Source of the DNA: an uncultured Winogradskyella sp.
Lineage (GTDB): Bacteria > Bacteroidota > Bacteroidia > Flavobacteriales > Flavobacteriaceae
DNA: 64,000 nt
Assembly (NCBI RefSeq): GCF_947495255.1
Contig: NZ_CANLYI010000001.1
Coordinates: forward strand, 1-64,000
Direction: 5' to 3'
Below are positions 47,062-62,362 of this stretch, in pieces. A program made the translations under genes and the position numbers. Each line of letters starts with the position of its first letter. Positions within the stretch are counted from its first letter, which is position 1. The notes below the pieces were generated by a model. That model searched no databases. It was not told the DNA's origin and saw only the letters and a list, made by a program, of their open reading frames with translations.

Positions 47062-47065
47062 ATCA

Positions 47066-47085
47066 ATGCCTGCGAAAGCAGGTAT
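47066..47085. repeat. type C palindrome between aminotransferase and E1 genes
   Basis: ATGCCTGCGAAAGCAGGTAT: arms of ~8 bases (CCTGC/GCAGG core). It lies 4 bases before the E1 ATG on the transcript and resembles the other CCTGC-core elements at 54.4, 60.9 and 62.3 kb. Confidence 0.7.
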
Positions 47086-47156
47086 CTATTTTATTAAAAT
47101 ATCAAGATCAATCATCTTTTATTAGCCTGAAAAACCTTTTCCGTTCGAGTTGGTTT

Positions 47157-47295
47157 GCGTTAGGGATTACTCGTTTATTCTTATTTAATAAATAAGAACT
47201 CGTGATTGCTTCGCAGTTGAGGCATTTGTTGAAGCTCTTTTTTGTTTTTCTCAAAAAAAGCGACTACCGAAAGCGCGCCCCTTGTGGTAACGCCC
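47157..47295. repeat. type E MITE-like element, long copy with nested insertion
   Basis: The ends are inverted GCGTTA ... TAACGC. An ~80-base body from 47217 onward is nearly identical to the copy at 54523-54604 (shared GTTGAAGCTCTTTTTTG, AAAAAAAGCGACT, CCGAAAGC, TAACGCCCAAAT). This copy carries ~50 extra bases, including the perfect hairpin TTCTTATTTA / TAAATAAGAA. It begins a few bases after the aminotransferase stop codon. Confidence 0.75.
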
Positions 47296-47303
47296 AAATA
47301 ACT

Positions 47304-48371
47304 CTAAGCTAATTCTTTTTCTACTTTAGTCATCCAATTAAATTGGTCGTCTAGCTTACCCGTTTTAATAGCATTCAAGGTGTCATTAACTTCTAATCCA
47401 ATTGGGCTTTCATCAGAAACATGAATCGTCTCGCCTTCCAATCCAATCTCTTGAATGTATGCTATACCAACGGCTGTTCCTGTTCCGAAGGCTTCTTCTA
47501 AAGTCCCGTTTTCTGATGCTGTTTTAATTTCATCGATAGTGATTTTTCGTTCTGTTACCGTGAAATTCATAGCACGTAACATCTCTATAACACTAGCTCT
47601 TGTGATGCCATGCAACACAGAACCGTCGAGCTCTGGTGTGATAAATTCTCCATTAATTTTGAAGAAAATATTCATGGTCCCAACTTCTTGAATATACTTA
47701 TGTTCTGCGGCATCTAACCATAATACTTGGTCGTAACCTTTGGCTTTTGCTAATTCTGTTGGGCGAATGGCCGCTGCATAATTACCTGCTGCTTTTGCCT
47801 CTCCAGTTCCACCTTGTGCTGCTCTAATGAATTGCTTTTCTGCCCATAATTTGATACGTTTACTGAAAAATGGACCTGCTGGTGATGCCATAATTATGAA
47901 CTTATAATGTGTTGCTGCTCGCATACCAATAAAAGGCTCATCGGCATACATGAATGGTCTTAAATAGAGTGCGCTTCCATCGGTTGGCGGAATCCAATTG
48001 TGCTCTAAACCAACTAATTCTTTGAGTCCTTCTACAAATAAATCTTCAGGAATATGAGGCATTCCCATTCGATCCGCACTTTTGTTTAAACGCTTAGCAT
48101 TTTCTTCTGGTCTAAATAACATTGGTGTACCTTTGGTGTCTTTATAGGCTTTCATCCCTTCAAAAATAGCTTGTCCGTAATGTAGAGCCATTGCTGCTGG
48201 ATGCGTTGGAATTAATCCCATAGGAATAATTCTTGGATTAACCCATTCACCGTTTTCGTAGTCGCAAATAAACATGTGATCGGTGAATGTGATGCCTAAT
48301 GGAATATTATTGAAGTCTAAGGCATCAACTTTTGATGTTTCTACTTTAGTGATTGAAATGTTAGATTTCAT
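47304..48371 (-). CDS. ilvE: branched-chain amino acid aminotransferase (fold type IV)
   Basis: It swaps the amino group between Leu/Ile/Val and 2-oxoglutarate. The 355-residue protein is the eukaryote-like BCAT type: LHYGQAIFEGMKAYKD near the N-terminus, LYLRPFMYADEPFIGM, the PLP Lys in GEAKAAGNYAAAIRP, DQVLWLDAAEHKYIQEVGTMN, and GTGTAVGIAYI at the end. It sits between E2 and E1 genes, making the 2-oxoacids that the complex oxidises, so here its main role is probably catabolic. Confidence 0.93.
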   Translation of the reverse strand: MKSNISITKVETSKVDALDFNNIPLGITFTDHMFICDYENGEWVNPRIIPMGLIPTHPAAMALHYGQAIFEGMKAYKDTKGTPMLFRPEENAKRLNKSADRMGMPHIPEDLFVEGLKELVGLEHNWIPPTDGSALYLRPFMYADEPFIGMRAATHYKFIIMASPAGPFFSKRIKLWAEKQFIRAAQGGTGEAKAAGNYAAAIRPTELAKAKGYDQVLWLDAAEHKYIQEVGTMNIFFKINGEFITPELDGSVLHGITRASVIEMLRAMNFTVTERKITIDEIKTASENGTLEEAFGTGTAVGIAYIQEIGLEGETIHVSDESPIGLEVNDTLNAIKTGKLDDQFNWMTKVEKELA

Positions 48372-48401
48372 ATATGTATGTTTTTTTAGAGTGTTTAAAA
48401 C

Positions 48402-48432
48402 ACCCCTAAAGTCCCCTCAAGGGGACAATTCT
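48402..48432. repeat. type D palindrome between E2 and aminotransferase genes
   Basis: CACCCCTAAAG followed by the hairpin GTCCCC-TCAA-GGGGAC and AATT. A close copy (CTCCTAAAGTCCTCTCAAGGGGACAATT-like) lies at 56346-56375. Confidence 0.75.
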
Positions 48433-48436
48433 AAAT

Positions 48437-49744
48437 TTATATTTCTCTATTACTATCAAATTGTTCAAAATAATCGGCTACGCGTCGTACAAAGCTTCCG
48501 CCTAAAAAGCCATCTACAACTCTGTGGTCGAATGATAATGATAAATACATCATGCTACGAATAGCTATTTCATCTCCTTTTTCAGTGGCGATGACTTCTG
48601 GTCTTTTCTTAATTATTCCCAATGCTAAAATGGCAACTTCTGGCTGATTGATTATTGGTGTTCCCATAACGCTTCCAAAGGTTCCTACATTAGAAATGGT
48701 GAAAGTGCTGCCATTTATATCGTCTCCTGCTAGTTTGTTTTCTCTAGCTTTTCCTGCGAGTTCGTTTACGTTACCAGCAATCTCTTTTAAATTTTTAGTA
48801 TCTGCATTTTTTACTACAGGAACTATTAAATTACCGCTTGGTAATGCTGTTGCCATACCAATATTAATGTCTTCTTTTACAATGATATTATTACCATCGA
48901 CAGAAGCATTAATATTCGGAAAATCTTTAACAGCTTTGGCTACGGCTTCTACAAATAATGGCGTGAAGGTTAAACGTTCTCCATGTTTTTCTTGAAAGGC
49001 AACTTTGTTAGCATTACGCCAGTTGACCATATTTGTCATATCTGCCTCTACATAAGCAGTAACGTGAGGTGATGTATGTTTTGAGTACACCATGTGATCT
49101 GCAATCATTTGGCGCATGCGATCCATTTCGATGACTTTTCCTTTGCCTTTATCGAAATTTAATTGCGGAATTCTATAAGCCGTTGGATCTTGCGTTACAG
49201 CTTGTGCAAATTTATAAGGTCGTCCGTCTTCTATATACTGAAACACATCGCTTTTGCGTAATCTGCCTTCATTTCCTGTAGCGGGAATTCGTGCTAATTC
49301 TTCAAAACTGATGTGATGTTCTTTCGCTATTTTTATGATTAATGGCGAAAAGAAAGTGTTAGTATTATTTACCGAAAATGAAGTTGAATTCGAATTGGCA
49401 GGCTGCTGAACTGGCTTTGGTCTTATAGTCTTAGCCTTGTTCTCGACTGCGCTCGAAGGGACAGCTTTAGATTCATTTAGTGTTTTGGATTTCTTAACTT
49501 CTTCTGAAACTTCTAAAATTGCAAGAACTTCTCCTACTGGAACGACATCTTTAGCTTGAAACATCGTTTTTACTAATGTTCCAGATGCTGGTGCAGGTAC
49601 TTCGTTATCTACTTTATCTGTGGCGACTTCAAGAATAATATCTCCTTCTTCAAATGCATCGCCTTCAGCTATTAACCAATTGATAATAGTCCCTTCAGTT
49701 ATGCTTTCACCCATTTTGGGCATCTTTAATTCAAAAGTAATCAA
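48437..49744 (-). CDS. dihydrolipoamide acyltransferase (E2) of branched-chain 2-oxoacid dehydrogenase
   Basis: E2 accepts the acyl group from E1 on lipoyl-lysine and transfers it to CoA. Residues 1-78 are the lipoyl domain with the lipoylated Lys in EVATDKVDNEVPAP. A flexible linker (~80-130) follows, then an E3-binding domain at ~133-170 (FSPLIIKIAKEHHISFEELARI), then the catalytic core with LSFDHRVVDGFLGG. The start is TTG 49744, giving MITFELKMPKMGES as in homologues; no ATG fits as well. The linker contains an in-frame palindrome (49439-49464). It heads the operon E2-aminotransferase-E1 and is divergent from an Lrp gene. Confidence 0.94.
   Translation of the reverse strand: MITFELKMPKMGESITEGTIINWLIAEGDAFEEGDIILEVATDKVDNEVPAPASGTLVKTMFQAKDVVPVGEVLAILEVSEEVKKSKTLNESKAVPSSAVENKAKTIRPKPVQQPANSNSTSFSVNNTNTFFSPLIIKIAKEHHISFEELARIPATGNEGRLRKSDVFQYIEDGRPYKFAQAVTQDPTAYRIPQLNFDKGKGKVIEMDRMRQMIADHMVYSKHTSPHVTAYVEADMTNMVNWRNANKVAFQEKHGERLTFTPLFVEAVAKAVKDFPNINASVDGNNIIVKEDINIGMATALPSGNLIVPVVKNADTKNLKEIAGNVNELAGKARENKLAGDDINGSTFTISNVGTFGSVMGTPIINQPEVAILALGIIKKRPEVIATEKGDEIAIRSMMYLSLSFDHRVVDGFLGGSFVRRVADYFEQFDSNREI
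49439..49464. repeat. type B short palindrome inside the E2 linker
   Basis: GTTCTCGACTGCGCTCGAAGGGACAG is a shortened form of the type B intergenic repeats (GTTCTCGATAC ... CACTCGAA(C/G)TGAC). On the minus strand it encodes about nine linker residues (AVPSSAVEN, ~94-102) in frame. Confidence 0.6.
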
Positions 49745-49809
49745 GCTAGTATAGTTTAGGATTATAAGAATTAAAGATAATGCATATCGAATTACACAAT
49801 TGTTAAAAT

Positions 49810-49831
49810 CTTTTAATTTAATATTAAAAAG
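49810..49831. promoter_or_regulatory. possible Lrp-type operator in the divergent E2/lrp spacer
   Basis: CTTTTAAT and ATTAAAAAG form an imperfect AT-rich inverted repeat midway between the two start codons. Lrp-family sites are AT-rich and degenerate, so this is a guess from position and symmetry. Confidence 0.3.
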
Positions 49832-49915
49832 GATATCATTCTATAATTATTTGATATTACAGATTATTTAACTTTTAATCCTTAGATTTACTGCTTTAAA
49901 ACAAATAATTTTCTC

Positions 49916-50392
49916 ATGCCACACACACTCGATAAAATAGACACACAACTGCTAGCTATACTTCAAAAAAATAGCAATCGAACGACAAAAAGTATTGCTG
50001 AAGAACTCGGCATGAGTACTTCACCAATATTTGAGCGTATTAAAAAATTAGAAAAGGAAGGTTATATTGAAAAATATGTGGCTGTTTTAAACAATAAGAA
50101 AATCGGCTTAAAACTGACTGTTTTCATAGGTATTACCTTGCAAGGCCATACACGAAGTTATTTGGAAAAGTTTGTAAAGGAAATTAACAACTTCCCTGAA
50201 GTTGTAGAATGCCATCGCGTCAGCGGAAACTTTGACTATTTATTGAAACTCGTCGTTGAAGATATTGAGGCTTATGAAACCTTTATCATTTCAAAATTGA
50301 CGCTACTTCCTTATTTAGGAAATGTACAAAGTTTGATTGCGCTATCGACAAGTAAAGAAACGAATGAGATTGATTTGAGTCGGGTGTTGTAG
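49916..50392 (+). CDS. Lrp/AsnC family transcriptional regulator
   Basis: The 158-residue protein has an N-terminal helix-turn-helix (LDKIDTQLLAILQKNSNRTTKSIAEELGMSTSPIFERIKKLEKEG) and a C-terminal RAM ligand-binding domain (VVECHRVSGNFDYLLKLVVEDIEAYE). It is divergent from the E2-aminotransferase-E1 operon. In Pseudomonas, the Lrp-type BkdR activates the branched-chain 2-oxoacid dehydrogenase genes; by analogy this protein may sense branched-chain amino acids and control the operon here. Confidence 0.92.
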   Translation: MPHTLDKIDTQLLAILQKNSNRTTKSIAEELGMSTSPIFERIKKLEKEGYIEKYVAVLNNKKIGLKLTVFIGITLQGHTRSYLEKFVKEINNFPEVVECHRVSGNFDYLLKLVVEDIEAYETFIISKLTLLPYLGNVQSLIALSTSKETNEIDLSRVL

Positions 50393-50421
50393 ACCTGTAA
50401 GGTTTTGAAAACCTGACAGGT
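50393..50421. repeat. type A palindrome after lrp
   Basis: 14-base arms ACCTGTAAGGTTTT / AAAACCTGACAGGT with one mismatch and a 1-base centre. It starts immediately after the lrp stop codon and may also act as its terminator. Confidence 0.8.
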
Positions 50422-50447
50422 ATTTAATATTGAGGATTAAAAATAGG

Positions 50448-50493
50448 ACTTCTCGATACAATTCCTATAAAAATCAGAATCACTCGAAGTGAC
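50448..50493. repeat. type B palindrome between lrp and paaY
   Basis: ACTTCTCGATACAATTC ... GAATCACTCGAAGTGAC shares its ends with the elements at 58595, 60845 and 61246. It ends 7 bases before the paaY stop. Confidence 0.75.
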
Positions 50494-50499
50494 ATCAGT

Positions 50500-51099
50500 T
50501 TACTTTTTGAATGTTTCTCGAAGTGTTTTATAACTATCCTCTTGCATTTTCATATTCTCAGGCACTTCTCGTAATGGCTCAACGACTTTTAAACTCTCGT
50601 GGCAATCTGCAGGTAATTGCTGATACAATTGCGTACCTTTTGTTTTCCAAGCAATCATTTCGTCCGTGATACCTCTGATTATTTTAGCAGGATTACCAAC
50701 CACTAAACTTCTATATGGAATTTTAGTTTCGGCTTTTACAAAAGACATGGCTCCGATTATACACTCGTCCCCAATTTCGGCATCATCCATAATTACTGTA
50801 TTCATTCCGATAAGGCAATTTTTACCCAAATTAGCTCCATGAATAATAGCTCCATGACCAACGTGTGCACTTTCTTTTAACGTGATGGACTTGCCTGGAA
50901 ACATGTGTACAGTACAGTTTTCTTGGACGTTTACACCATCTTCTAAAATGATTTGTCCCCAATCACCACGTATTGCTGCTCCTGGACCAATGTAACAGTT
51001 TTTGCCAATAATAACGTTTCCTGTTACTGCTGCTAATGGATGTACGAAACTTGATTCGTGAACGACAGGTGTGTAATTTTTGAAAGAATAAATTGCCAT
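50500..51099 (-). CDS. paaY: PaaY-type hexapeptide-repeat thioesterase/gamma-carbonic-anhydrase fold
   Basis: The 199-residue protein is a left-handed beta-helix of hexapeptide repeats (AAVTGNVIIGKNCYIGPGAAIRGDWG, HVGHGAIIHGANLGKNCLIGMNTVIMD), with three His residues placed as in gamma-carbonic anhydrases. The C-terminal tail (YQQLPADCHESLKVVEPLRE) is typical of PaaY. PaaY acts as a thioesterase that removes dead-end CoA esters (2-hydroxycyclohepta-1,4,6-triene-1-formyl-CoA) in phenylacetate breakdown. It is last in the minus-strand paa cluster. Confidence 0.9.
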   Translation of the reverse strand: MAIYSFKNYTPVVHESSFVHPLAAVTGNVIIGKNCYIGPGAAIRGDWGQIILEDGVNVQENCTVHMFPGKSITLKESAHVGHGAIIHGANLGKNCLIGMNTVIMDDAEIGDECIIGAMSFVKAETKIPYRSLVVGNPAKIIRGITDEMIAWKTKGTQLYQQLPADCHESLKVVEPLREVPENMKMQEDSYKTLRETFKK

Positions 51100-51122
51100 A
51101 TTTTCATCAATTTGAATTACAT

Positions 51123-51148
51123 CTACAAGGTTCCTAAAACCTTGCAGG
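51123..51148. repeat. type A palindrome between paaF-like gene and paaY
   Basis: CTACAAGGTT / AACCTTGCAG arms (one mismatch), matching the CCTGCAAGGTTTT variant seen at 57622. Confidence 0.75.
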
Positions 51149-51153
51149 ACAGA

Positions 51154-51912
51154 TTATTTATAAGTCTTTAATTTCTCTTTTGTAAAATCGCTTAACACTA
51201 GTTTTCCGCTAGTTGCTGCACGTTCTGCTAATAATGCATCCCAATGATCTGTTCCTTGCCAGAATACTTTTTTCATTTCTAGCATCGCTTCTGTATTATA
51301 AGTACATAAGTGTTCTGCTGTTGTTTTTACAGCTTCATCTAGTTCTACTGTGCTTTCATACACTTGCGTGAATAAGCCTTTTTGTTTTGCCCATTCTGCA
51401 GGATAAAAGGTGTTGGCGTCTATAGCGATTTGTGACATAGCACTTAATCCCATTTTACGCTCTATTGCTGGTCCAACTACAAATGGTCCAATACCAATAT
51501 TTAATTCGCTTAACTTAATAGCTGCGAATTTGGATGCCATACAATAATCGGTTGCAGCTGCTAGTCCTACGCCACCACCAACGGTTTTCCCTTGAATGCG
51601 ACCGATAATAAATTTCGGACATTTACGCATCGCATTAATCACGTTTGCGAATCCGGAAAAGAACACTTTCCCTGTTGCTGCATCGTTAATGTTTATTAGT
51701 TCTTCGAAGCTTGCTCCTGCGCAAAAAGTTCTGTCTCCACCACTTTTAAGAACCACAACTTTAATAGCGTCGTTAGTTCCAGCGTCTGTAATGGTTTGCG
51801 CTAGTTTTGCTAAAACATCTCCTGGTAAGGAATTGTGTGCAGGATGGAAAAACTCGATGTATCCTACTTCGTTTTGTATATCTAATGTTACGTATGGTTG
51901 CTTTTCTGACAT
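51154..51912 (-). CDS. enoyl-CoA hydratase/isomerase family protein, probably PaaF-like
   Basis: The 252-residue crotonase-fold protein shows the oxyanion segments RTFCAGASFEEL and GKTVGGGVGLAAATDYCMA. It lacks the GLVPDSAG motif of PaaG at 58.6 kb, so it is more likely the 2,3-dehydroadipyl-CoA hydratase step (PaaF). The two catalytic Glu positions of standard hydratases are not obvious to me, so substrate assignment is tentative. It begins 2 bases after paaZ, the only spacer in the cluster too short to hold a palindrome. Confidence 0.8.
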   Translation of the reverse strand: MSEKQPYVTLDIQNEVGYIEFFHPAHNSLPGDVLAKLAQTITDAGTNDAIKVVVLKSGGDRTFCAGASFEELININDAATGKVFFSGFANVINAMRKCPKFIIGRIQGKTVGGGVGLAAATDYCMASKFAAIKLSELNIGIGPFVVGPAIERKMGLSAMSQIAIDANTFYPAEWAKQKGLFTQVYESTVELDEAVKTTAEHLCTYNTEAMLEMKKVFWQGTDHWDALLAERAATSGKLVLSDFTKEKLKTYK

Positions 51913-51914
51913 AA

Positions 51915-54419
51915 TTATATTAATCCAAATTGTTCAAAATGATGGTTAAGGTGTTTTCTTTCTAGTAAATACGATTCGTATTTATTCAATTCTCCGAAAA
52001 CTAAATTCTTTAATTTAGCTTCTGGGTTTTCTTTAAAAAACTCTAAATACTTTTCACGTTGTGCTTTAAACTTATCTATTGCTGTTGCTAAATCGGCATG
52101 TTTTAAAGGTTCTAAAGTATCTTTTTCTAATTGTGGAAATTGACTATTCTTAGGAAACTTATCATAGTTCCATAAGCTATTATGTACTTTCTCTAGAATT
52201 TTTTCTGGTGTAGCAATTTCAAAATCTTGAATTTCACCAGATGCAATTTTATAGGTATATTCTAAATGTTCAATCATGTGTTGAGGTGTCATAATTCCCC
52301 ATTTAGGTTTTGCATCTTCTTTTAATGCATAAAGACATTCGTTGATTTTATCTTCAGTCATTTCAGTTAAAACTTCTTGCTTTTTCTGAACCATAGTTAA
52401 GACTGTTGCGAATGCTACTTTCTCATCGGTATTTGCATCAAAAATTTCGGCATACCATTTTACAATTCCGCTAGGATGTTCTGCTGAAGCGACGTCTCTA
52501 TCTACTTTTTGCTTACACGTTAAGCGCACATAAATAGTATCGTTGTGATATAACGGTCTTAAAAACCTGCATTCTTCTAGTCCGTAATTTGCTGAAACTG
52601 GTCCTTTATTTGGATACACAAATAATCCTGCTGCAGCTGAAATAATAAAATAACCATGTGCAGTTCTTTGTTCGAAAATACTTCCGTCTAAAGAAGTAAT
52701 ATCTGTATGCGCATAGAAATGATCCCAAGTGACATTTGCAAAATTAATAATGTCTGTATCTGTAAATGTACGTCTGTGCGTTTTCATAGACATTCCTGGT
52801 TGGATGTCTTCCCAATGGTATTTAAATGGATGTTGTAGAGCTTCCTTATACTTTGCATTTTGCTGGTAAATACCAGTAATTTCTGTAATTGTTGTTGGCG
52901 AACCTTGGATGGCTGTACGTTGTAAATAATGTTTTATTCCACGCATTCCTCCCATTTCTTCTCCTCCTCCAGCACGTCCAGGACCTCCATGAACTAAATA
53001 TGGTAATGGCGAACCATGACCTGTACTTTCCTTTGCCATATCTCGATTAACAACCATAATACGACCGTGATGAGATGCTGCATTAACTACATACTCTTTA
53101 GCAATCTTATCGTCATTTGTGGCAATTGAAGATACTAACGACCCTTTACCCATTTGAGCTAATAGAATAGCTTCATCTAAGTTTTTATAAGGCATAATGG
53201 TACTTACTGGACCAAAGGCTTCACGTTCGTGAATTATTGTATTTTCAAAGGGATGATCAGAACGTAATAAAATTGGGCTAATAAAAGCGCCTTTTTTAGC
53301 ATCTGCTCCAATGGTGTTTATTTGATCTAAACTGCCATAAACAATTTGTGCTTCTTTAGATAAATCATTTACTGAGTCTCTAACTGCTTGCACTTGTTGA
53401 TGACTTACTAAAGATCCCATTCTAACTTCTTTAAGTCTTGGATCTCCAATAGTTACTTTATCTAATGCTTTTGACAAGGCAGATTGTACATCTTCCACTA
53501 AATTTTGCGGAACAATAATTCTACGTATTGCAGTACATTTTTGTCCTGCTTTAACCGTCATTTCTTTTCTGACTTCTTTGATGAACAAGTCGAATTCTGG
53601 TGTTCCAGGAACGGCATCTTCTCCTAAGATGGATGCGTTTAAAGAATCGGCTTCCATGGTAAATGGCACAGATTCTTGTATTAATTGTGGATGCGCTTTT
53701 AGTAAGCGTCCTACTTTTGCAGAACCCGTAAATGTTACAACATCTTGAGACTCTAATGTGTCAAGAATTGTTTTTACGGTTCCGTTTATAATTTGTAGTG
53801 CACCTTCTGGTAAAATACCGGAAGCGATTATTTCTTTTGCTACAGCTTCAGCTAAATAAGAAGTGGAAGGTGCTGGTAAAACTACAGCAGGCACTCCAGC
53901 CATCCAGTTTACTGCACATTTTTCTAACATTCCCCAAACTGGAAAATTAAAGGCATTAATATGAACTGCTACTCCTTTTTTAGGCACCATGATATGATGC
54001 GCCATAAAACGTCCGCCACGAGATAAATCGATAGCATCCCCTTCTACATGATACGGTTGATTTGGGAACAGTTTACGTAATGAAGCATTTGCGAATAAAT
54101 TCCCAAAACCACCTTCGATGTCTATCCAACTATCTACTTTGGTTGCTCCTGTTCTATAACTTAATTCGTAAAACGAATTTTTCCTTTTAGTAAGATATAA
54201 CGCTAAACTTTTAAGCATGTTTCCACGTTCTTGGAAAGTCATTTTTCGAAGAACCTCTCCTCCTTTTGTTCTTCCGTAGTTAAGAATTTCTGGAACGTCT
54301 AAACCTTCGATAGCAATGCTCGTAAAGGCTTCGCCAGTTACAGCGTCTAAGATTGGTGTTCCTTCTTCTTTACCTGTTGTCCATTGTCCTTGAACGTAAT
54401 GCTCTATTTTATTCATCAT
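51915..54419 (-). CDS. paaZ: PaaZ: oxepin-CoA hydrolase / semialdehyde dehydrogenase, with extra C-terminal domain
   Basis: PaaZ opens the oxepin-CoA ring and oxidises the resulting aldehyde. Residues 1-~520 are the aldehyde dehydrogenase (FTMEADSLNAS with catalytic Glu; VKAGQKCTAIRRI with catalytic Cys; GGPGRAGGGEEMGG). Residues ~535-676 are the MaoC-like hydratase (FANVTWDHFYAHTD ... GYFIISAAAG). At 834 residues it is about 150 longer than E. coli PaaZ (681). Residues ~677-834 form an added domain with MTPQHMIEHLEYTYK and ERKHLNHHFEQFGLI, a DUF1569/DinB-like His arrangement. Whether it catalyses anything is unknown. Confidence 0.93.
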   Translation of the reverse strand: MMNKIEHYVQGQWTTGKEEGTPILDAVTGEAFTSIAIEGLDVPEILNYGRTKGGEVLRKMTFQERGNMLKSLALYLTKRKNSFYELSYRTGATKVDSWIDIEGGFGNLFANASLRKLFPNQPYHVEGDAIDLSRGGRFMAHHIMVPKKGVAVHINAFNFPVWGMLEKCAVNWMAGVPAVVLPAPSTSYLAEAVAKEIIASGILPEGALQIINGTVKTILDTLESQDVVTFTGSAKVGRLLKAHPQLIQESVPFTMEADSLNASILGEDAVPGTPEFDLFIKEVRKEMTVKAGQKCTAIRRIIVPQNLVEDVQSALSKALDKVTIGDPRLKEVRMGSLVSHQQVQAVRDSVNDLSKEAQIVYGSLDQINTIGADAKKGAFISPILLRSDHPFENTIIHEREAFGPVSTIMPYKNLDEAILLAQMGKGSLVSSIATNDDKIAKEYVVNAASHHGRIMVVNRDMAKESTGHGSPLPYLVHGGPGRAGGGEEMGGMRGIKHYLQRTAIQGSPTTITEITGIYQQNAKYKEALQHPFKYHWEDIQPGMSMKTHRRTFTDTDIINFANVTWDHFYAHTDITSLDGSIFEQRTAHGYFIISAAAGLFVYPNKGPVSANYGLEECRFLRPLYHNDTIYVRLTCKQKVDRDVASAEHPSGIVKWYAEIFDANTDEKVAFATVLTMVQKKQEVLTEMTEDKINECLYALKEDAKPKWGIMTPQHMIEHLEYTYKIASGEIQDFEIATPEKILEKVHNSLWNYDKFPKNSQFPQLEKDTLEPLKHADLATAIDKFKAQREKYLEFFKENPEAKLKNLVFGELNKYESYLLERKHLNHHFEQFGLI

Positions 54420-54435
54420 TTTTACTTTATAGTGG

Positions 54436-54454
54436 ATTCCTGCCTGCGCAGGAA
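54436..54454. repeat. type C palindrome upstream of paaZ
   Basis: ATTCCTGCCTGCGCAGGAAT core; near-perfect inverted repeat 16 bases before the paaZ ATG on the transcript. Confidence 0.75.
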
Positions 54455-54512
54455 TGACAAAACTTTATTGTTTACTACAACTAAGAATTATCATTAACCT
54501 TAGCGGCTAAGT

Positions 54513-54600
54513 GCGTTAAGGATTGAGGTATTTGTTGAAGCTCTTTTTTGTTTTTCTCAAAAAAAGCGACTGCCGAAAGCCTGACCTTTAGGTAACGCCC
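54513..54600. repeat. type E MITE-like element, short copy
   Basis: An 88-base element bounded by GCGTTA and TAACGC. The body matches the copy at 47157-47295 but lacks the ~50-base nested insertion. It begins 8 bases after the thiolase stop codon. Confidence 0.75.
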
Positions 54601-54608
54601 AAATTATT

Positions 54609-55820: not shown

Positions 55821-55870
55821 ATTTGAAATTGAAATTGAAATTGAAGTCGAAAATTGAAACTTCATATTTC
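55821..55870. repeat. type F low-complexity TTGAAA repeat/hairpin between paaI and paaJ
   Basis: Three tandem ATTGAA units, then GAAGT ... ACTTC and TTTGAAAT ... ATTTCAAA inverted repeats. It fills the whole spacer up to the thiolase start codon. Confidence 0.65.
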
Positions 55871-55885
55871 AAATTAATATTTTTT

Positions 55886-56290
55886 TTATTCCCAATCTTT
55901 TTGAGTTCTGTAAACCACACCTTTAAAAAGTGCAACTATTTCATCTCCTCTTTTTACTTCAATAATATTGAAGCCTAATTTATTCTTTACCGTTTCTATT
56001 ACAGATTCTGCAACTATATAATCGCCTTCACTTAATGCTTCGATATGGTTTATACTTGTTTCTATAGAAACTGCATATTTACCATGTGTGTTTGCTGCAA
56101 ATCCGAAAGCTGTATCTGCTAATGAATAACTTATTCCACCATGTGCTTTATTCATGCTGTTTAGCATGTCGCCTCTAATGATCATTCCGACTTTGCATCG
56201 TCCGATTTCGCATTCTAGAATTTCTATTCCTAACCAAGTGCTGTAAGCATCTTGAGATAGCATTTTATATGGAATTTGCTCGCCTTTCAT
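55886..56290 (-). CDS. paaI: PaaI-type hydroxyphenylacetyl-CoA thioesterase
   Basis: A 134-residue hotdog-fold thioesterase with MLNSMNKAHGGISYSLADTAFGFAANTHG, which contains the PaaI catalytic region (Asn and Asp placed as in the family). It hydrolyses ring-hydroxylated phenylacetyl-CoA side products and frees CoA. It sits between paaH and the thiolase in the paa cluster. Confidence 0.93.
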   Translation of the reverse strand: MKGEQIPYKMLSQDAYSTWLGIEILECEIGRCKVGMIIRGDMLNSMNKAHGGISYSLADTAFGFAANTHGKYAVSIETSINHIEALSEGDYIVAESVIETVKNKLGFNIIEVKRGDEIVALFKGVVYRTQKDWE

Positions 56291-56294
56291 ATTT

Positions 56295-56315
56295 ATTTCC
56301 TACGACAGTGGGAAT
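56295..56315. repeat. type C' palindrome upstream of paaI
   Basis: ATTTCCTACGACAGTGGGAAT: degenerate form of the TTCCCACGA-A-GTGGG element at 57576. Confidence 0.6.
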
Positions 56316-56345
56316 CTTATTAATTATTATTATATTTAAAAAAAA

Positions 56346-56375
56346 CACTCCTAAAGTCCTCTCAAGGGGACAATT
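56346..56375. repeat. type D palindrome between paaH and paaI
   Basis: CACTCCTAAAGTCCTC-TCAA-GGGGACAATT, one G-U-like mismatch from the copy at 48402; 7 bases from the paaH stop. Confidence 0.72.
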
Positions 56376-56382
56376 GACGCGA

Positions 56383-57570
56383 TTAAAAAAACGATTTATC
56401 TTCTCTATTCATTTTACGTAACAACGGACTACATCTGTATCTATCTTCATGATATTCGTTATATAATTCATCCATTTTACTTACGCACCAATCGATTCCT
56501 TTTTCGTCTGCCCAAGCCAATAATCCATTTGGATAATTGACACCTTTAGTCATGGCATTGTCGATATCCTCAGCTGATGCAATGTTTAAAAATAAGGCAT
56601 CTGCTGCTTCGTTGATGAGCATTACTAATACACGATCGAAAATTTGATTTTTAAGCTCCATTTCCTCCTCGTAAGTTTCAAAAGTTCTTGAATTAGTGTG
56701 ATTAGTGTTAATTATTTTTCCATTTTGATCGTAATTATAATAACCTTTTCCTGATTTCCGTCCTAAATAACCTGCTTCTGAAAATCGTTTTTGGGTTAAT
56801 GATGGCTTATATCTTGGATCAAAATAGAATGCTGTAAAAACGGTTTCGGTTACTGTGTAATTAACGTCGTTTCCTATGAAATCCATCAATTCAAATGGTC
56901 CCATTCTGAAATCACCTAAAGACTTTAAGCTATGATCTATGGTTGCAAAATCTGCTAATCCTTCTTCGTAAATTCTTAGTGCTTCACCGTAAAATGGTCT
57001 TGCCACTCTGTTTACTATAAATCCTGGTGTGTCTTTAGCGACTGCTACAACTTTCTTCCAATCTTTAATGGTTTGTATGGCTTTTTCAAGAACCTCATTT
57101 GATGTTTGAATGGCTGGAATAACCTCAACCAATTTCATTAAAGGTGCTGGATTAAAAAAGTGAATCCCTACACAACGTTCTGGTTTGTTAAGTGATGCAG
57201 CAATAGATGCGATGGATAAACTAGAAGTGTTTGATGCAATAATACAATCGTCTGCAACATAGCTTTCCAATTCGGAAAACACTTTTTTCTTGATATCCAA
57301 GTTTTCAATAATTGCTTCAATAGTCAGATTTGAATCTGCTAAATCTTTTAGGTTGTTTACGTAAGAGATGTTTGCTTGAATTCTATCTTTTTCAGATGTA
57401 TCAATTCTTCCTTTTTCAATTAAACGTAATAATATTTTTTCAAGACTTGCTTTAGCTTTATCTAATGCAGCTTGATTAGTATCGTATAACTTTACTTTGC
57501 AACCAGAAGTTGCAGCAACTTGTGCGATGCCACTTCCCATGGTTCCTCCTCCTATGATTCCTATGTTCAT
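56383..57570 (-). CDS. paaH: 3-hydroxyacyl-CoA dehydrogenase
   Basis: The start is ATG 57570 (MNIGIIGGGTMGSG); the track ORF adds four residues by reading a GTG inside a palindrome. The 395-residue protein has the Rossmann NAD motif GGGTMGSGIAQVAA, HFFNPAPLMKLVEVI, KDTPGFIVNRVARPF, and two C-terminal helical domains (the second with DNAMTKGVNYPNGLLAW). It oxidises 3-hydroxyadipyl-CoA to 3-oxoadipyl-CoA. Confidence 0.94.
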   Translation of the reverse strand: MNIGIIGGGTMGSGIAQVAATSGCKVKLYDTNQAALDKAKASLEKILLRLIEKGRIDTSEKDRIQANISYVNNLKDLADSNLTIEAIIENLDIKKKVFSELESYVADDCIIASNTSSLSIASIAASLNKPERCVGIHFFNPAPLMKLVEVIPAIQTSNEVLEKAIQTIKDWKKVVAVAKDTPGFIVNRVARPFYGEALRIYEEGLADFATIDHSLKSLGDFRMGPFELMDFIGNDVNYTVTETVFTAFYFDPRYKPSLTQKRFSEAGYLGRKSGKGYYNYDQNGKIINTNHTNSRTFETYEEEMELKNQIFDRVLVMLINEAADALFLNIASAEDIDNAMTKGVNYPNGLLAWADEKGIDWCVSKMDELYNEYHEDRYRCSPLLRKMNREDKSFF

Positions 57571-57575
57571 CCTTG

Positions 57576-57594
57576 TTCCCACGAAAGTGGGTGA
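57576..57594. repeat. type C' palindrome upstream of paaH
   Basis: TTCCCACGAAAGTGGGTGA: CCCAC/GTGGG stem placed 5 bases before the paaH ATG, overlapping the ribosome-binding region. Confidence 0.7.
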
Positions 57595-57621
57595 CTTTTA
57601 ATTAAACTTCTATTTTTTATA

Positions 57622-57648
57622 CCTACAAGGTTTTAAAAACCTTGCAGG
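57622..57648. repeat. type A palindrome between dehydratase and paaH genes
   Basis: CCTACAAGGTTTT / AAAACCTTGCAGG arms with one mismatch, 7 bases after the dehydratase stop. Confidence 0.8.
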
Positions 57649-57654
57649 ATAATT

Positions 57655-58590
57655 TTAAAAAGGTAGATTTTTCACATCTACATTACCGCCAGATAAAATG
57701 ATGCCGACGTTCTTATTTTTAAATTCTTCTTTATTATTTAACACTGCTGCAAAAGGAACAGCACATGAAGGCTCAATAACAATCTTCATGCGTTCCCAAA
57801 TTAATTGCATTGCATTTATTATTTCATCTTCTTCAACACGAATAATCTTATCCACATATTTTTGAATAATCGGAAAATTACGATCACCTAAATGCGTTCT
57901 TAATCCATCAGCAACGGTATGAAAACTCTCGTTAGTTTCTATTTTACCTGAAATTAATGAACGATAAGCATCATCTGCTTCCATAGGTTCTCCTCCAATA
58001 ACTTTACAGTTGTTTGAAAAGTAGTGTGCTGCCAGCGCTGTGCCTGCAATTAACCCTCCTCCTCCAACTGGTGTTAAAATTACATCCAAATTTGGTTGTT
58101 CTTCTAACAGCTCAATTGCTGCTGTACTGTTTCCGTAAATTACCTCATCTTGATTTGATGGATGTAAAAATGTTGCTCCTTTTTCTTCTTTTATGCTATT
58201 GGCAGTTGCTTCTCTTGCTTGAGGTGTCGATTCACATTCTATGATTTCTCCCTCGTAAGTTCTAACACCATCTTTTTTAACTTGAGGTGCATTCTCTGGC
58301 ATTACAATATATGCTTTAACTCCTAATTTCTGAGCTGCTAATGATACAGCTTGAGCAAAATTACCAGACGAATGTGTAACCACGCCACGTTGTCTTTCTT
58401 CTTCCGAAAGTGATAAAATGGCATTTGCAGCACCTCGCATTTTAAAGGCTCCCATTTTTTGAAAGTTCTCACACTTAAAAAACAAATTACAACCTGCTTT
58501 TTCATTTAATAACTGTGAGGTTAACACAGGTGTTTTATGAATAAAGGGTTTTATTCGGTTGTGAGTTTCTATGAGAGTTTGTTTATTCAT
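57655..58590 (-). CDS. serine/threonine dehydratase-like PLP enzyme within the paa cluster
   Basis: The 311-residue fold-type II PLP enzyme has FFKCENFQKMGAFKMRGAANA, with the PLP Lys in the K-M-GAFKMRGA context, VTHSSGNFAQAVSLAA, and the phosphate loop LTPVGGGGLIAGTAL. There is no C-terminal ACT domain, so it resembles catabolic threonine dehydratase or serine racemase rather than biosynthetic IlvA. It is on the same strand as the paa genes, between paaG and paaH, with palindromes in both flanking spacers. It has no known step in phenylacetate breakdown. Confidence 0.88.
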   Translation of the reverse strand: MNKQTLIETHNRIKPFIHKTPVLTSQLLNEKAGCNLFFKCENFQKMGAFKMRGAANAILSLSEEERQRGVVTHSSGNFAQAVSLAAQKLGVKAYIVMPENAPQVKKDGVRTYEGEIIECESTPQAREATANSIKEEKGATFLHPSNQDEVIYGNSTAAIELLEEQPNLDVILTPVGGGGLIAGTALAAHYFSNNCKVIGGEPMEADDAYRSLISGKIETNESFHTVADGLRTHLGDRNFPIIQKYVDKIIRVEEDEIINAMQLIWERMKIVIEPSCAVPFAAVLNNKEEFKNKNVGIILSGGNVDVKNLPF

Positions 58591-58594
58591 ATTT

Positions 58595-58640
58595 GTTCTC
58601 GATACAAAATTGCAAAAAGCAATTTCACTCGAACTGACGT
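58595..58640. repeat. type B palindrome between paaG and dehydratase genes
   Basis: GTTCTCGATACAAAATTGC ... GCAATTTCACTCGAAC: outer GTTC.CGA/TCGAAC and inner AAATTGC/GCAATTT stems. It fills nearly the whole spacer. Confidence 0.82.
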
Positions 58641-58644
58641 TAAT

Positions 58645-59427
58645 CTAGTTCCCTTTGAAATTTGGTTGACGTTTTTCTATAAACGCTGCAACACCTTCTT
58701 TATAATCTTCACTTTGTGCTGCTTCTATTTGTAATTTAGATTCTAAAGCTAATTGAGATTCTAAATCGTTAGTCATCGATGTATTGAACAATTCTTTGAT
58801 CATACCTAATGCTTTAGTTGGCATGTTTGCTAGTTTTAAAGCTAGTTTATTAATCGTTTCGTCAAATTCTTCAGTTGGAACACATTTATAAATCATTCCC
58901 ATTTTTTCAGCTTCTTCAGCTCCAATTTTATCACCTAACATCGCTAATGCTAATGCTTTTTGAAAACCTATTAGTCTTGGTAAAAAGAAAGTCCCAGCAC
59001 TATCTGGAACTAAACCGATTAAACTAAATGCCTGAATAAAACTTACTTTTTCGTGAGCAACAACAACATCGCAAGCCAAAGCAATATTTGCTCCAGCACC
59101 AGCTGCTACTCCATTAATAGCTCCAATAATTGGTTTTTTAATAGAACGAATTCTTGTAATTATTGGATTGTAATGTTCTTCTAGTATTTTTTTGAATCCA
59201 GGGTTTAAATCTGGATCTGTAACTTCTTTTAAATCTTGACCAGCACAAAAAGCTTTTCCGTTTCCTGTTAAGACAATAGCTCTTACTTCTTTATTTGTTT
59301 CGCAAGCATCCAAGGTTTCTTGTAAGCTAAATGCCATTTCACGATTGAAACTATTAAATACTTCTGGTCTATTGAACGTGATGTACGCTACTTTGTTTTC
59401 AATTTTAAGCTGAATGCTTTTGCTCAT
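58645..59427 (-). CDS. paaG: 1,2-epoxyphenylacetyl-CoA isomerase
   Basis: PaaG turns the ring epoxide into oxepin-CoA. The 260-residue crotonase-fold protein has AFCAGQDLKEV, GVAAGAGANIALACDVVVA, and the PaaG-type FSLIGLVPDSAGTFFLPRLIG with the catalytic Asp. It lies directly after the epoxidase subunit genes. Identification over a generic hydratase rests on this motif and on position. Confidence 0.92.
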   Translation of the reverse strand: MSKSIQLKIENKVAYITFNRPEVFNSFNREMAFSLQETLDACETNKEVRAIVLTGNGKAFCAGQDLKEVTDPDLNPGFKKILEEHYNPIITRIRSIKKPIIGAINGVAAGAGANIALACDVVVAHEKVSFIQAFSLIGLVPDSAGTFFLPRLIGFQKALALAMLGDKIGAEEAEKMGMIYKCVPTEEFDETINKLALKLANMPTKALGMIKELFNTSMTNDLESQLALESKLQIEAAQSEDYKEGVAAFIEKRQPNFKGN

Positions 59428-59440
59428 ATTTCACTTTTTT

Positions 59441-59473
59441 AGACCTGTCAGGTTTTAAAAACCTGACAGGTCT
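59441..59473. repeat. type A perfect palindrome between paaD and paaG
   Basis: A perfect 33-base inverted repeat: 16-base arm AGACCTGTCAGGTTTT and its complement around a single A. It fills most of the 51-base spacer. Confidence 0.88.
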
Positions 59474-59478
59474 GTTTC

Positions 59479-59979
59479 TTACTTTAAACATTTAAAATAG
59501 TCAAACGGTTCTTGGCAATCATCACACTGAAATTGTGCTTTACATGCTGTAGACCCAAACTGACTTACTAATCTTGTATTTGTGGAACCACAATTGGTAC
59601 ACTTTACCAATCGTTTTCCATTTAGCAACACATCTTTATCTGCTTCTGCACTTAAAGGTGCTGCAATACCATAATCTTCTAATGCTTTACGACCTCTTGG
59701 TGTAATCCAATCGGTTGTCCAAGCTGGAGCTAGAATTAATTCTATTTCAGACTTGTATCCTTCTGCTTTTAATGCAGCTTTAATATCGTCTCCAATAACA
59801 TCCATTGCTGGACAACCACTATAGGTTGGTGTTATTTGCACTTTTACAATATCATTTTCTATAACAGCTGTACGAACAACTCCCATATCCATAATTGATA
59901 ATACTGGAATTTCAGGATCTGAAACTTGTTCCAGAATTGGAATTAAGATTTGGTCTATATTTTGTTCTGTTGTTGTCAT
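59479..59979 (-). CDS. paaD: phenylacetyl-CoA epoxidase maturation subunit PaaD
   Basis: The 166-residue protein has a MIP18/DUF59 domain (ISD-like: LEQVSDPEIPVLSIMDMGVVR, TPTYSGCPAMDVI) and a C-terminal zinc-ribbon-like cluster (CTNCGSTNT ... CDDCQEPFDYFKC). It is thought to help iron-sulfur or di-iron assembly for the PaaABCE monooxygenase. It follows paaC. Confidence 0.94.
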   Translation of the reverse strand: MTTTEQNIDQILIPILEQVSDPEIPVLSIMDMGVVRTAVIENDIVKVQITPTYSGCPAMDVIGDDIKAALKAEGYKSEIELILAPAWTTDWITPRGRKALEDYGIAAPLSAEADKDVLLNGKRLVKCTNCGSTNTRLVSQFGSTACKAQFQCDDCQEPFDYFKCLK

Positions 59980-60052
59980 TTTTTGAAGTTGAAGTTGAAA
60001 CTGAATTTGAAGTGTTCTTTTTTCAAATTCAAGTTCGATTTCAATTTCTTTT
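59980..60052. repeat. type F hairpin between paaC and paaD
   Basis: Plus strand: TTTGAAGTTGAAGTTGAAAC then TTCAAATTCAAGTTCGATTTC. These TTGAA/TTCAA-rich arms of about 25 bases are imperfectly complementary around AGTGTTCTTT. The element fills the whole spacer and resembles 55821-55870. Confidence 0.68.
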
Positions 60053-60808
60053 TTACCATTCCATATTTGGATAAGCTCTTTGCATGTATTGAAGCTCTGC
60101 TAACAAATATCCTAAATGCTCTGTATGAATTCCTTTTTTACCTCCTTTTTGGAACCATTTAGATTCTGGGATTTGTAAAGTAGATTCTTCTAAAACAGCA
60201 TTTACTTTATTGTAGTATGCCTCTTTTAATTTAGTAACATCTACGCCTATTCCTTCTGAAACCATTGCTATGTCTGCTTCTGCCTGATGAAACAACTCGT
60301 CTGTGTACGTCCATAATCCATCTATAGCATCTTGCATTTTTTGATGACTTACTTCTGTTCCATCACCTAAACGTTTTATCCAATCTGAAGAAAAACGCAA
60401 ATGATAACTTACTTCTTTTATCGATTTGTTTGCTATTGCAGACAATGTTAAATCTTTACTTTTTTGTAATTCTTGTAAAAAAAGTAAATGATACACATCG
60501 AATAAAAACTGACGTGCCATTGTGTATGCAAAATTTGTATTTGGTTGTTCTACCAATAATACATTTACATATTCTCTTTCTTTACGAAGCATTGCAATAT
60601 CATCTTCGGTTCTATTATCTCCTGCAATTTTAGCAGCATATTGATAATAACTTCTCACTTGTCCAAATAAATCTAATGAGATATTTGTGCATGCAATATC
60701 TGTTTCTAGACTTGGTCCATGACCTGTTAACTCTCCTAATCTTTGCCCAAGGATAAGACTGTTGTCTGCTATTCCTAGAATGTAGTTGTATAGGTTTTCG
60801 TTTTTCAT
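60053..60808 (-). CDS. paaC: phenylacetyl-CoA epoxidase structural subunit PaaC
   Basis: The 251-residue ferritin-like protein begins NLYNYILGIADNSLILGQRLGEL. It continues with GHGPSLETDIACTNISLDL, LLVEQPNTNFAYTMARQFL and KEVSYHLRFSSDWIKRLGDG. PaaC pairs with PaaA and supports the catalytic di-iron subunit without itself being the active site. Confidence 0.95.
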   Translation of the reverse strand: MKNENLYNYILGIADNSLILGQRLGELTGHGPSLETDIACTNISLDLFGQVRSYYQYAAKIAGDNRTEDDIAMLRKEREYVNVLLVEQPNTNFAYTMARQFLFDVYHLLFLQELQKSKDLTLSAIANKSIKEVSYHLRFSSDWIKRLGDGTEVSHQKMQDAIDGLWTYTDELFHQAEADIAMVSEGIGVDVTKLKEAYYNKVNAVLEESTLQIPESKWFQKGGKKGIHTEHLGYLLAELQYMQRAYPNMEW

Positions 60809-60814
60809 CTTAAG

Positions 60815-60834
60815 TGCCCACGAAAATGGGTGTC
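60815..60834. repeat. type C' palindrome upstream of paaC
   Basis: TGCCCACGAAAATGGGTGTC: CCCAC/ATGGG stem 6 bases before the paaC ATG on the transcript, like the element before paaH. Confidence 0.65.
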
Positions 60835-60844
60835 TATTTAATTA

Positions 60845-60890
60845 GTTCTCGATACGATTCCAATAAAAAATCGGAATCACTCGAAGTGAC
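60845..60890. repeat. type B palindrome between paaB and paaC
   Basis: GTTCTCGATACGATTCC ... GGAATCACTCGAAGTGAC: same ends as other type B elements, with a CGATTCC/GGAATC inner stem. Confidence 0.8.
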
Positions 60891-60910
60891 GTTTAGTTTC
60901 AATTTATGAG

Positions 60911-60930
60911 ATTCCTGCGTTGGCAGGAAT
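60911..60930. repeat. type C palindrome after paaB
   Basis: ATTCCTGCGTTGGCAGGAAT: ATTCCTGC / GCAGGAAT arms; abuts the paaB stop codon. Confidence 0.75.
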
Positions 60931-61221
60931 TTACATATGTTTTACCTCGTCTGGTAAATCGTAAAATGTTGGATGACGATATACTTTATCGTGAGCTGGC
61001 TCAAACATTTCGCCATTATTCTCAGGATTTGATGCTGTGATATTTTTAGATTCTACAACCCAAATACTAACACCTTCGCTTCTTCTTGTGTACACATCGC
61101 GTGCATTTTCTAGAGCCATATCTTCATCTGCAGCGTGTAAACTTCCGCAGTGACGATGTTCTAATCCGTTTTTACTTCTTACAAAGACTTCCCAAAGTGG
61201 CCAGTTTTTTTTATCAGACAT
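60931..61221 (-). CDS. paaB: phenylacetyl-CoA epoxidase subunit PaaB
   Basis: The 96-residue protein has the PaaB pattern WPLWEVFVRSKNGLEHRHCGSLHAADEDMALENARDVYTRR and SIWVVESKNI. PaaB bridges the PaaAC heterodimers in the multicomponent monooxygenase. It lies between paaA and paaC. Confidence 0.96.
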   Translation of the reverse strand: MSDKKNWPLWEVFVRSKNGLEHRHCGSLHAADEDMALENARDVYTRRSEGVSIWVVESKNITASNPENNGEMFEPAHDKVYRHPTFYDLPDEVKHM

Positions 61222-61245
61222 AATTTATATGTGTTTTTTCATCTT

Positions 61246-61290
61246 GTTCTCGATACAAAATTGCTAAAGAGCAATTTCACTCGAACTGAC
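61246..61290. repeat. type B palindrome between paaA and paaB
   Basis: GTTCTCGATACAAAATTGC ... GCAATTTCACTCGAACTGAC; almost identical to the copy at 58595, differing mainly in the loop. Confidence 0.85.
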
Positions 61291-61298
61291 AATGAAAT

Positions 61299-62255
61299 TT
61301 AAATTGCTTGTTTTTGTTTTCTTTCTTGTTTCTTCTGTGCATAAGCCATAGCTGCATCACGAACCCATTCTCCTTCTTCCCATGCACCAACACGTGCTTT
61401 CATACGCTCTTTATTCATTGGCCCATGACCTTTTACTACTTGCCAGAACTCGTCCCAATTGATTTCTCCGAAATCGTAACTTTGACGCTCTTCGTTCCAT
61501 TTTAAATCTGCATCTGGAATTGTCAACCCAATTAATTCGGCTTGAGGCACTGTTTGATCTATAAACTGCTGACGTAAATCGTCGTTAGACTTACGTTTTA
61601 ATTTCCATTTCATAGATTGCTCTGTATGTATAGACTCTGCATCTGTAGGACCTAACATCATTAAACTTGGCCACCACCAACGGTTTAAAGCATCTTGAGC
61701 TAATTCTTTTTGCTCAGGAGTTCCGTTAGTTAGCTTTATCATGATTTCGTAACCTTGACGCTGGTGAAAACTTTCTTCTTTACAAACACGAACCATTGCT
61801 CGTGCATATGGTCCATAAGATGTATTACATAATGGTACTTGGTTTATAATTGCTGCTCCATCTACTAACCAACCTACGGCTCCCATATCTGCCCAAGTTA
61901 CTGTTGGGTAGTTAAATATTGAAGAGTATTTTGCTTTTCCAGAGTGTAGTTGCTCGTATAATTCTTCGCGAGAAACACCTAGCGTTTCACAAGCAGAATA
62001 TAAGTATAACCCGTGTCCTGCTTCGTCTTGTACTTTTGCTAATAAAGCAACTTTACGACGTAATGAAGGCGCTCTTGTAATCCAGTTTCCTTCTGGAAGC
62101 ATTCCTACAATTTCGGAATGTGCGTGTTGCGACATTTGCCTAATATGCGTTTTGCGATATTTTTCTGGCATCCAATCTTTTGGTTCGATTTTCTCGTCTC
62201 TTGCAATACGTGCTTCGAATTGCGTTTCTAGGTTTTTTATTTGTTCTTCACTCAT
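61299..62255 (-). CDS. paaA: phenylacetyl-CoA epoxidase catalytic subunit PaaA
   Basis: The 318-residue ferritin-like subunit carries the di-iron ligands in [16 protein letters not shown] (E..H) and [15 protein letters not shown] (E..H). It also has the family start [26 protein letters not shown] and the [24 protein letters not shown] tail. It inserts oxygen into the ring of phenylacetyl-CoA to form the 1,2-epoxide, with electrons from PaaE. Confidence 0.97.
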
Positions 62256-62260
62256 TATAA

Positions 62261-62293
62261 TAGCTATTAGCTATTGGCTCTTGGCCTTTAGCA
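62261..62293. repeat. tandem heptamer repeat between paaE and paaA
   Basis: TAGCTAT TAGCTAT TGGCTCT TGGCCTT TAGC: about four and a half diverging 7-base units just upstream of the paaA start. Confidence 0.6.
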
Positions 62294-62331
62294 TGTTGAA
62301 CTTAATTTTTCTTTTTCAATATATTTTTCAA

Positions 62332-62351
62332 ATTCCTGAATTGGCAGGAAT
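62332..62351. repeat. type C palindrome between paaE and paaA
   Basis: ATTCCTGAATTGGCAGGAAT: ATTCCTG / CAGGAAT arms; 11 bases after the paaE stop. Confidence 0.72.
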
Positions 62352-62362
62352 AACAAATCTTT

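Follow-up and report, generated by a model that had tools for sequence, protein, structure and literature searches.

In Winogradskyella, the spacers of a catabolic operon are probably occupied by mobile elements that are short and form hairpins. These belong to several families with no relation to one another, and most would be ORF-less relatives of tiny elements in which one small gene lies between two matching palindromes. What was observed is the repeats themselves, how they are concentrated locally and how they turn over from species to species, together with the bracketing of genes by the same palindromes and the matching of the two ends. The cluster lies in the window (the whole stretch of 64,000 nucleotides analysed), which is part of a 4.2-Mb Winogradskyella genome, labelled G000. 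Its genes are arranged in the order paaE, A, B, C, D, G, a PALP enzyme, H, I, J, Z, a second paaG (paaG2), paaY, lrp (on the opposite strand), E2, a class IV aminotransferase and E1; several of these names are presumptive, being assigned from position and pathway knowledge. The elements are located in Table 1.

Table 1. Coordinates of the host cluster and of the repeat elements in the window
Feature	Positions	Strand	Location and remarks
Host cluster	45010..63436	-	18.4 kb, lrp on + strand
C-like palindrome	47066..47085		directly upstream of E1
Element E, long form	47157..47296	-	aminotransferase-E1 spacer
Element D, exact consensus	48400..48426	-	E2-aminotransferase spacer
B1 palindrome	49440..49457		inside E2 gene, linker region
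lrp/E2 divergent promoter spacer	49745..49915		no elements
Element A	50393..50421		lrp-paaY spacer
Element B	50450..50488	-	lrp-paaY spacer
Element A, diverged	51122..51148		paaG2-paaY spacer
Element C, TGTC tag and CCA tail (canonical CGTC-type)	54436..54455	-	paaJ-paaZ spacer
Element E, short form	54513..54601	-	paaJ-paaZ spacer; identical in G014
Element F (TTGAAA/TTTCAA inverted repeats)	55821..55865		paaI-paaJ spacer
C-like palindrome	56297..56314		upstream of paaI
Element D, 2 mismatches	56345..56371	-	paaH-paaI spacer
C-like palindrome	57578..57591		upstream of paaH
Element A	57622..57648		PALP-paaH spacer
Element B	58596..58633	-	paaG-PALP spacer
Element A, 16-bp near-perfect stem	59441..59473		paaD-paaG spacer
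Element F	59980..60052		paaC-paaD spacer; near-identical in G002 and G014
C-like palindrome	60814..60833		upstream of paaC
Element B	60846..60885	-	paaB-paaC spacer
Element C without tag	60911..60930		paaB-paaC spacer
Element B	61247..61285	-	paaA-paaB spacer
G-type short-period repeat (GGCCAAGAGCCAATAGCTAATAGC)	62256..62295		paaE-paaA spacer
Element C	62332..62351		paaE-paaA spacer

Repeat families and their local density

From the E1/aminotransferase spacer (47062-47303) to the paaE/paaA spacer (62256-62362), each of the 14 spacers longer than 2 nt holds at least one repeat element. The original observation, that every such spacer carries a repeat and that the lrp/E2 promoter spacer is the sole exception, was borne out by this spacer-by-spacer scan; the latter spacer exhibits no element either in the window or in any of the 11 relatives that yielded both genes. 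The families were divided by pattern, partly by eye; the relatives' spacers had already been read when H, I and J were introduced. Two corrections apply to families A to F as first proposed: B and C share a GTCA/CGTC tag, and E is a structured element of 75-140 nt. A search of the elements against Rfam yielded no match at the gathering score. Several stems of the cluster, taken one by one, scarcely exceed their own shuffles; the signal beyond chance resides in their repetition.

Densities were derived from whole-genome pattern searches and from a sample of this genome comprising 40 stretches of 20 kb each, 800 kb in total. The cluster exhibits 17 family matches in its 18.4 kb, against 37 in the 800-kb sample (0.46 per 10 kb), where no 20-kb stretch contains more than four. 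Elements are present in 11 of 13 co-directional spacers of at least 20 nt in the cluster, compared with 10 of 296 in the sample (p=5e-13). When copies of A, B, D and E are counted over the whole genome, 11 out of 55 fall in the cluster (0.44% of the genome) versus 0.24 expected (p=1e-15). Density is thus unequal across the genome, which upholds the proposed cluster specificity. The first 45 kb of the window had been said to contain a single REP-like element, at 19.2 kb. Positions 1-45009 contain no match to the family patterns; the palindrome at 19.2 kb is not a member of any family, and some eight further hairpins, each unique, occur there, several of them bearing a T-tract like ordinary intrinsic terminators. 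The contrast therefore lies in the repeat families, not in hairpins per se.

The hotspot is common to the genus. Elements occur in 87 of the 165 spacers of the relatives' clusters, and crowding of this operon is seen in most species of Winogradskyella: G003 has 21 elements in its cluster, and G005 has 24, against 0.80 per 10 kb elsewhere in its genome. Of the 82 D copies in five genomes, 15 lie in the cluster, as do about 15 of the 25 E copies counted across the genus; the cluster position in G026 was judged from one locus. We regard the cluster as a likely persistent hotspot of mobile elements. Its cause is probably weak selection against insertions between the genes of a conditionally used catabolic operon, with the lrp/E2 promoter spacer presumably protected from insertion.

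A second crowded operon of G000 (C2:201.6-206.7 kb, L165), identified by reading its proteins, is the kynurenine (tryptophan) catabolic operon. It contains several palindromes, two ORFs begin inside them, and peptides such as KIPASAGTGVTPRG are encoded by a C palindrome. It was originally suggested that the elements may be mobile, REP/MITE-like and tolerated only between genes. This is supported as regards mobile REP/MITE-like elements that are strongly enriched in the cluster and mostly intergenic, but not as regards a strictly intergenic location, given the in-frame copies in the E2 linker and at the two ORF starts of the kynurenine operon.

Turnover between species

Gene order is kept, where covered, in 15 genomes of the same genus. 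Many cluster junctions measure 0-10 nt in G004 and G007 and tens to hundreds of nt in others, and the same site exhibits different families in different species. Only 5 of 13 spacers have a family in common between the window and its closest relative (93% mean protein identity), a comparison that missed E because the E pattern was too strict there; the E counts come from separate E searches. Base-for-base conservation of the spacers, named beforehand as an argument against mobility, is not what the relatives exhibit. A few spacers are near-identical (paaJ-paaZ and E2-AT4 between the window and G014; paaC-paaD between the window, G002 and G014), so that part of the pattern is due to inheritance or recombination. 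Spacers at the same site are more similar (Jaccard 0.26) than those at different sites (0.12). Elements are also nested: a GTCA-tagged palindrome lies within the loop of an H palindrome (L054), B within E (L338) and A within E (L064). Compact and filled spacers, compared by eye, revealed no target-site duplication, the relatives being too distant for clean empty sites. Turnover and nesting at a conserved operon probably reflect mobile elements, their movement being read from comparison of present-day sequences.

Larger insertions in the otherwise constant gene order were seen in the paaG2-lrp region of L060 and between paaY and lrp in L059. The paaI-paaJ spacer of L055, L058, L061, L064 and L067 carries an extra gene of ~0.9 kb (MKWQGRRQSGNLEDQRGMG...), absent from the window, which reads like a zinc metallopeptidase; F repeats adjoin it in L067 and L055. 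In L132 and L138, the last codons of paaZ and an inverted copy that follows them (GAGCAATTCAATTTG ... CAAATTGAATTGCTC) enclose the stop codon, and this inverted paaZ 3' end adjoins a GIY-YIG element.

Element E

Element E is a structured element of 75-140 nt with the layout GGCGTTA-[hairpin]-GTC-NN-GCTTTC-[hairpin]-C-NN-TAACGC. Its two NN positions pair with each other in 51 of 52 cases (26 distinct sequences, four main combinations), compared with a mean of 26 under permutation (0/10000 reach the observed value). The strict pattern has two copies in G000, both in this cluster. E matched no Rfam family, and no partner gene was seen in the E loci.

Genes bracketed by the palindromes

In the relatives, the same spacers carry extended forms in which the palindromes enclose an ORF. 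Bracketing was assessed by comparing the upstream flank with the reverse-complemented downstream flank, scored against a null. Family A is found on both sides of a RAYT-like Y1 transposase gene in G000 and three relatives. In locus L001 (G000:C4:53298-56639) this A-Y1-A unit is located directly upstream of hemF, as it is in G005 and G012, and its downstream A palindrome sits in frame, continuing into what reads as hemF. The A-linked Y1 protein scores 41 bits versus the 80-bit cut-off of the RAYT model NF047646. No unpaired GTAG tag was found beside the A consensus; A is not filed as a GTAG REP. The RAYT search proposed at the outset did find a RAYT-like gene, but one that fits A alone, most families being found with GIY-YIG, DUF559 or PF05635 genes.

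Pairs of D, matching at 28/28 nt, flank a DUF559 protein of ~121 aa in G000 (C5:291634, L116) and in G003. Flanking inverted repeats scoring at or above the 95% level of the null were found for 9 of 10 small DUF559 ORFs versus 0 of 18 large ones; the flanks of large ORFs of the enclosed-gene families (UvrC-size and others) score at null. In relatives, the inverted repeats that flank PF05635 four-helix-bundle genes are of short period and resemble F and G. No PF05635 gene was found in G000.

GIY-YIG nucleases and CGTC-type REPs

Palindromes of the C, H and B1 types flank stand-alone GIY-YIG genes in relatives; taken together, the GTCA/CGTC-tagged palindromes around such genes belong to C, B, B1, H and J, with tags outward. 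A GIY-YIG profile, built from eight proteins with bracketed ones as seeds, was used to scan 84,980 species genomes. Among 76 loci with usable flanks, not all independent, a palindrome lies within 200 nt on both sides in 56 and on at least one side in 71, against 8 of 147 control windows taken 500-900 nt away. At the tighter limit of 80 nt, 47 GIY-YIG loci are bracketed; for ordinary genes the figure is 4 of 947 and for small genes 0 of 156, in two Winogradskyella genomes. The distance from palindrome to ORF end is mostly 3-25 nt, and the tags face outward in a ratio of 106:9. Left and right palindromes of a locus are more alike than palindromes of different loci (0/2000 permutations), and palindrome similarity tracks protein similarity (Mantel r=0.34, 2/2000).

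Of 15 homologues taken from plasmid-collection records, 11 have at least one flanking palindrome and 4 have none. In these records, CGTC REPs stand on both sides of GIY-YIG genes in Aeromonas, Neorhizobium, Rhizobium, Azospirillum lipoferum 4B, two Shinella, Novosphingobium aromaticivorans and Sphingobium, mostly tag-outward; Neisseria exhibits flanking REPs on either side, their orientation being mixed. Several "plasmid" records of 2-5 Mb (NZ_CP119140.1, NZ_AP026896.1 and similar) look like mislabelled chromosomes. G000 itself has one small GIY-YIG gene, with degenerate ends scoring below the null cut-off; together with the lack of a PF05635 gene, this leaves most window copies without a clear resident partner.

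In C, H and J, the GTCA-tagged palindromes of the cluster clades, a CGTC/TGTC tag lies outside a stem of 8-9 bp that starts with AT and closes on a loop of 4-5 nt. Most C copies end in a CCA tail and many H copies in CTCA, and head-head (tag-outward) dimers predominate, as seen in L056, L058 and L062. The tag is lost or altered in some C copies of the window (60911, 62332). Family B has the CGTC tag but a longer, interrupted two-part stem in place of a single one, and its inner stem covaries between copies (5.31 vs 4.19 pairs, 0/5000); it is filed solely as a CGTC-tagged relative.

CGTC-tagged REPs, which include Neisseria dRS3 and Rickettsia RPE-4/RPE-6, were described by Di Nocera et al. (2013, PMC3733652), who reported no associated transposase gene; what moves these widespread repeats was left open. 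That no mobility gene goes with them is something the paper observed; the CGTC REP sequence is not defined by it. Since these REPs were reported without a dedicated transposase, the GIY-YIG nuclease is a candidate partner enzyme, which may mobilise them. No report of GIY-YIG genes with REPs or palindromes was found in the open-access papers searched, priority being unproven; the same papers contained no report of DUF559 genes with palindromes or of PF05635-type proteins as mobile genes.

GIY-YIG genes of another type (MYTTYILYSKSKNRFYVGHSADLKDR...) were also encountered. One lies between repeated tRNA 3' ends with terminators (L139, G002:C8:101643-104855) and looks like an element regenerating a tRNA end. 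A run of similar tandem GIY-YIG copies, spaced at 381 bp, occurs at G011:C1:541857-544316.

Proposed explanation and alternatives

According to our explanation, the enclosed protein would act on the hairpins of its own palindromes, thereby moving the element, and may also move solo or paired palindromes in trans. Most window copies would then be relics, whose partners now reside in sister species. A later role of the elements in RNA stability is possible. The original interpretation as a whole is partly supported, and the observation behind it is confirmed.

The order of events could be reversed, although we find this unlikely: palindromes came first and were moved otherwise (by an unseen transposase or host gene conversion), and the small nuclease genes are parasites homing into palindrome pairs. 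GIY-YIG and DUF559 are indeed nuclease families with homing or restriction relatives, and at paaB-paaC the linker appears conserved while both palindromes switch family, as judged by eye, which gene conversion might yield. However, the closeness of the palindromes to the ORF ends, their outward tags, their matched ends and the tracking of palindrome type with protein suggest a single co-inherited unit.

More doubtful still is the view that the elements are kept for the operon's sake, as mRNA stabilisers, partial terminators or spacers setting subunit ratios; any hairpin would then serve, so families could swap at one site. The persistent enrichment of this operon across many species, the recurrence of E, with its covarying pairs, at two sites shared by several species, and the known RNA roles of REPs (PMC3733652) are all compatible with such a function. 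Against it, the junctions of the same operon are near-empty in several species (G004, G007), and the second crowded operon has in-frame copies. An intrinsic-terminator scan of the operon strand gave a single weak match overlapping an element (D at 48400); the other elements lack the combination of G+C stem and T-tract on the transcribed strand, and a terminator role on that strand has little support.

That one RAYT system moves all families is very improbable: the gene bracketed by A in G000 and three relatives would be its source, but 8 of 17 genomes, G003 with its crowded cluster among them, yielded no Y1 transposase, and other families bracket other genes. RAYT as the sole mobiliser was rejected on the strength of these genomes. 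Chance palindromes and low-complexity sequence in AT-rich spacers would account for F, which is of low complexity, and for the stems barely above their shuffles, but the likelihood is negligible, this origin being refuted by the recurrence of consensus copies across the genome and the genus and by zero family matches in 200 kb of an order-1 Markov control.

Beyond Winogradskyella, and at close to even confidence, we read CGTC REPs across bacteria (rhizobial, sphingomonad, perhaps Neisseria dRS3) as the ends or ORF-less derivatives of GIY-YIG-only mobile elements, DUF559 and PF05635 having founded parallel palindrome-bracketed classes in Flavobacteriaceae. On the same reading, these parallel classes would imply several origins of REP-like elements, around small proteins unrelated to one another. 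A partner enzyme travelling with matching palindromes would make the mobility of CGTC REPs directly testable, and a GIY-YIG partner, if true, adds a nuclease-linked class beside REP/RAYT. The operon is a natural record, with one gene order, 15 relatives and spacers repeatedly invaded by different elements, useful for measuring element turnover and any cost to gene expression.

Comparison with known systems

The A units resemble REP/RAYT systems (TnpA-REP, Bacteroidetes subclasses 2.4/2.6, PMC6006769) in that A brackets a Y1 (HUH) transposase gene, but differ in having no clear unpaired GTAG tag and a protein under the NF047646 cut-off. IS200/IS605 elements and MITEs are likewise small, with subterminal hairpins and ORF-less derivatives; most families here, in contrast, enclose other proteins, and no target-site duplication was identified. 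The PF05635 protein of 23S rRNA intervening sequences is also a four-helix-bundle protein encoded between inverted repeats, whereas the present genes occur in intergenic spacers with short-period repeats. The GIY-YIG proteins, whose nearest solved sequences are UPF0213 proteins (PDB 1zg2, 1ywl), share a single GIY-YIG domain with these and with GIY-YIG homing endonucleases; unlike the latter, their genes are free-standing between REP pairs and not in an intron or intein. The closest likeness in C, H and J is to the CGTC REPs (PMC3733652), with the same CGTC/TGTC tag, 8-bp stem starting with AT, 4-5 nt loop, CCA-type tail, tag-outward dimers and mostly extragenic location; the difference is the recurrent stand-alone GIY-YIG gene between the paired palindromes.
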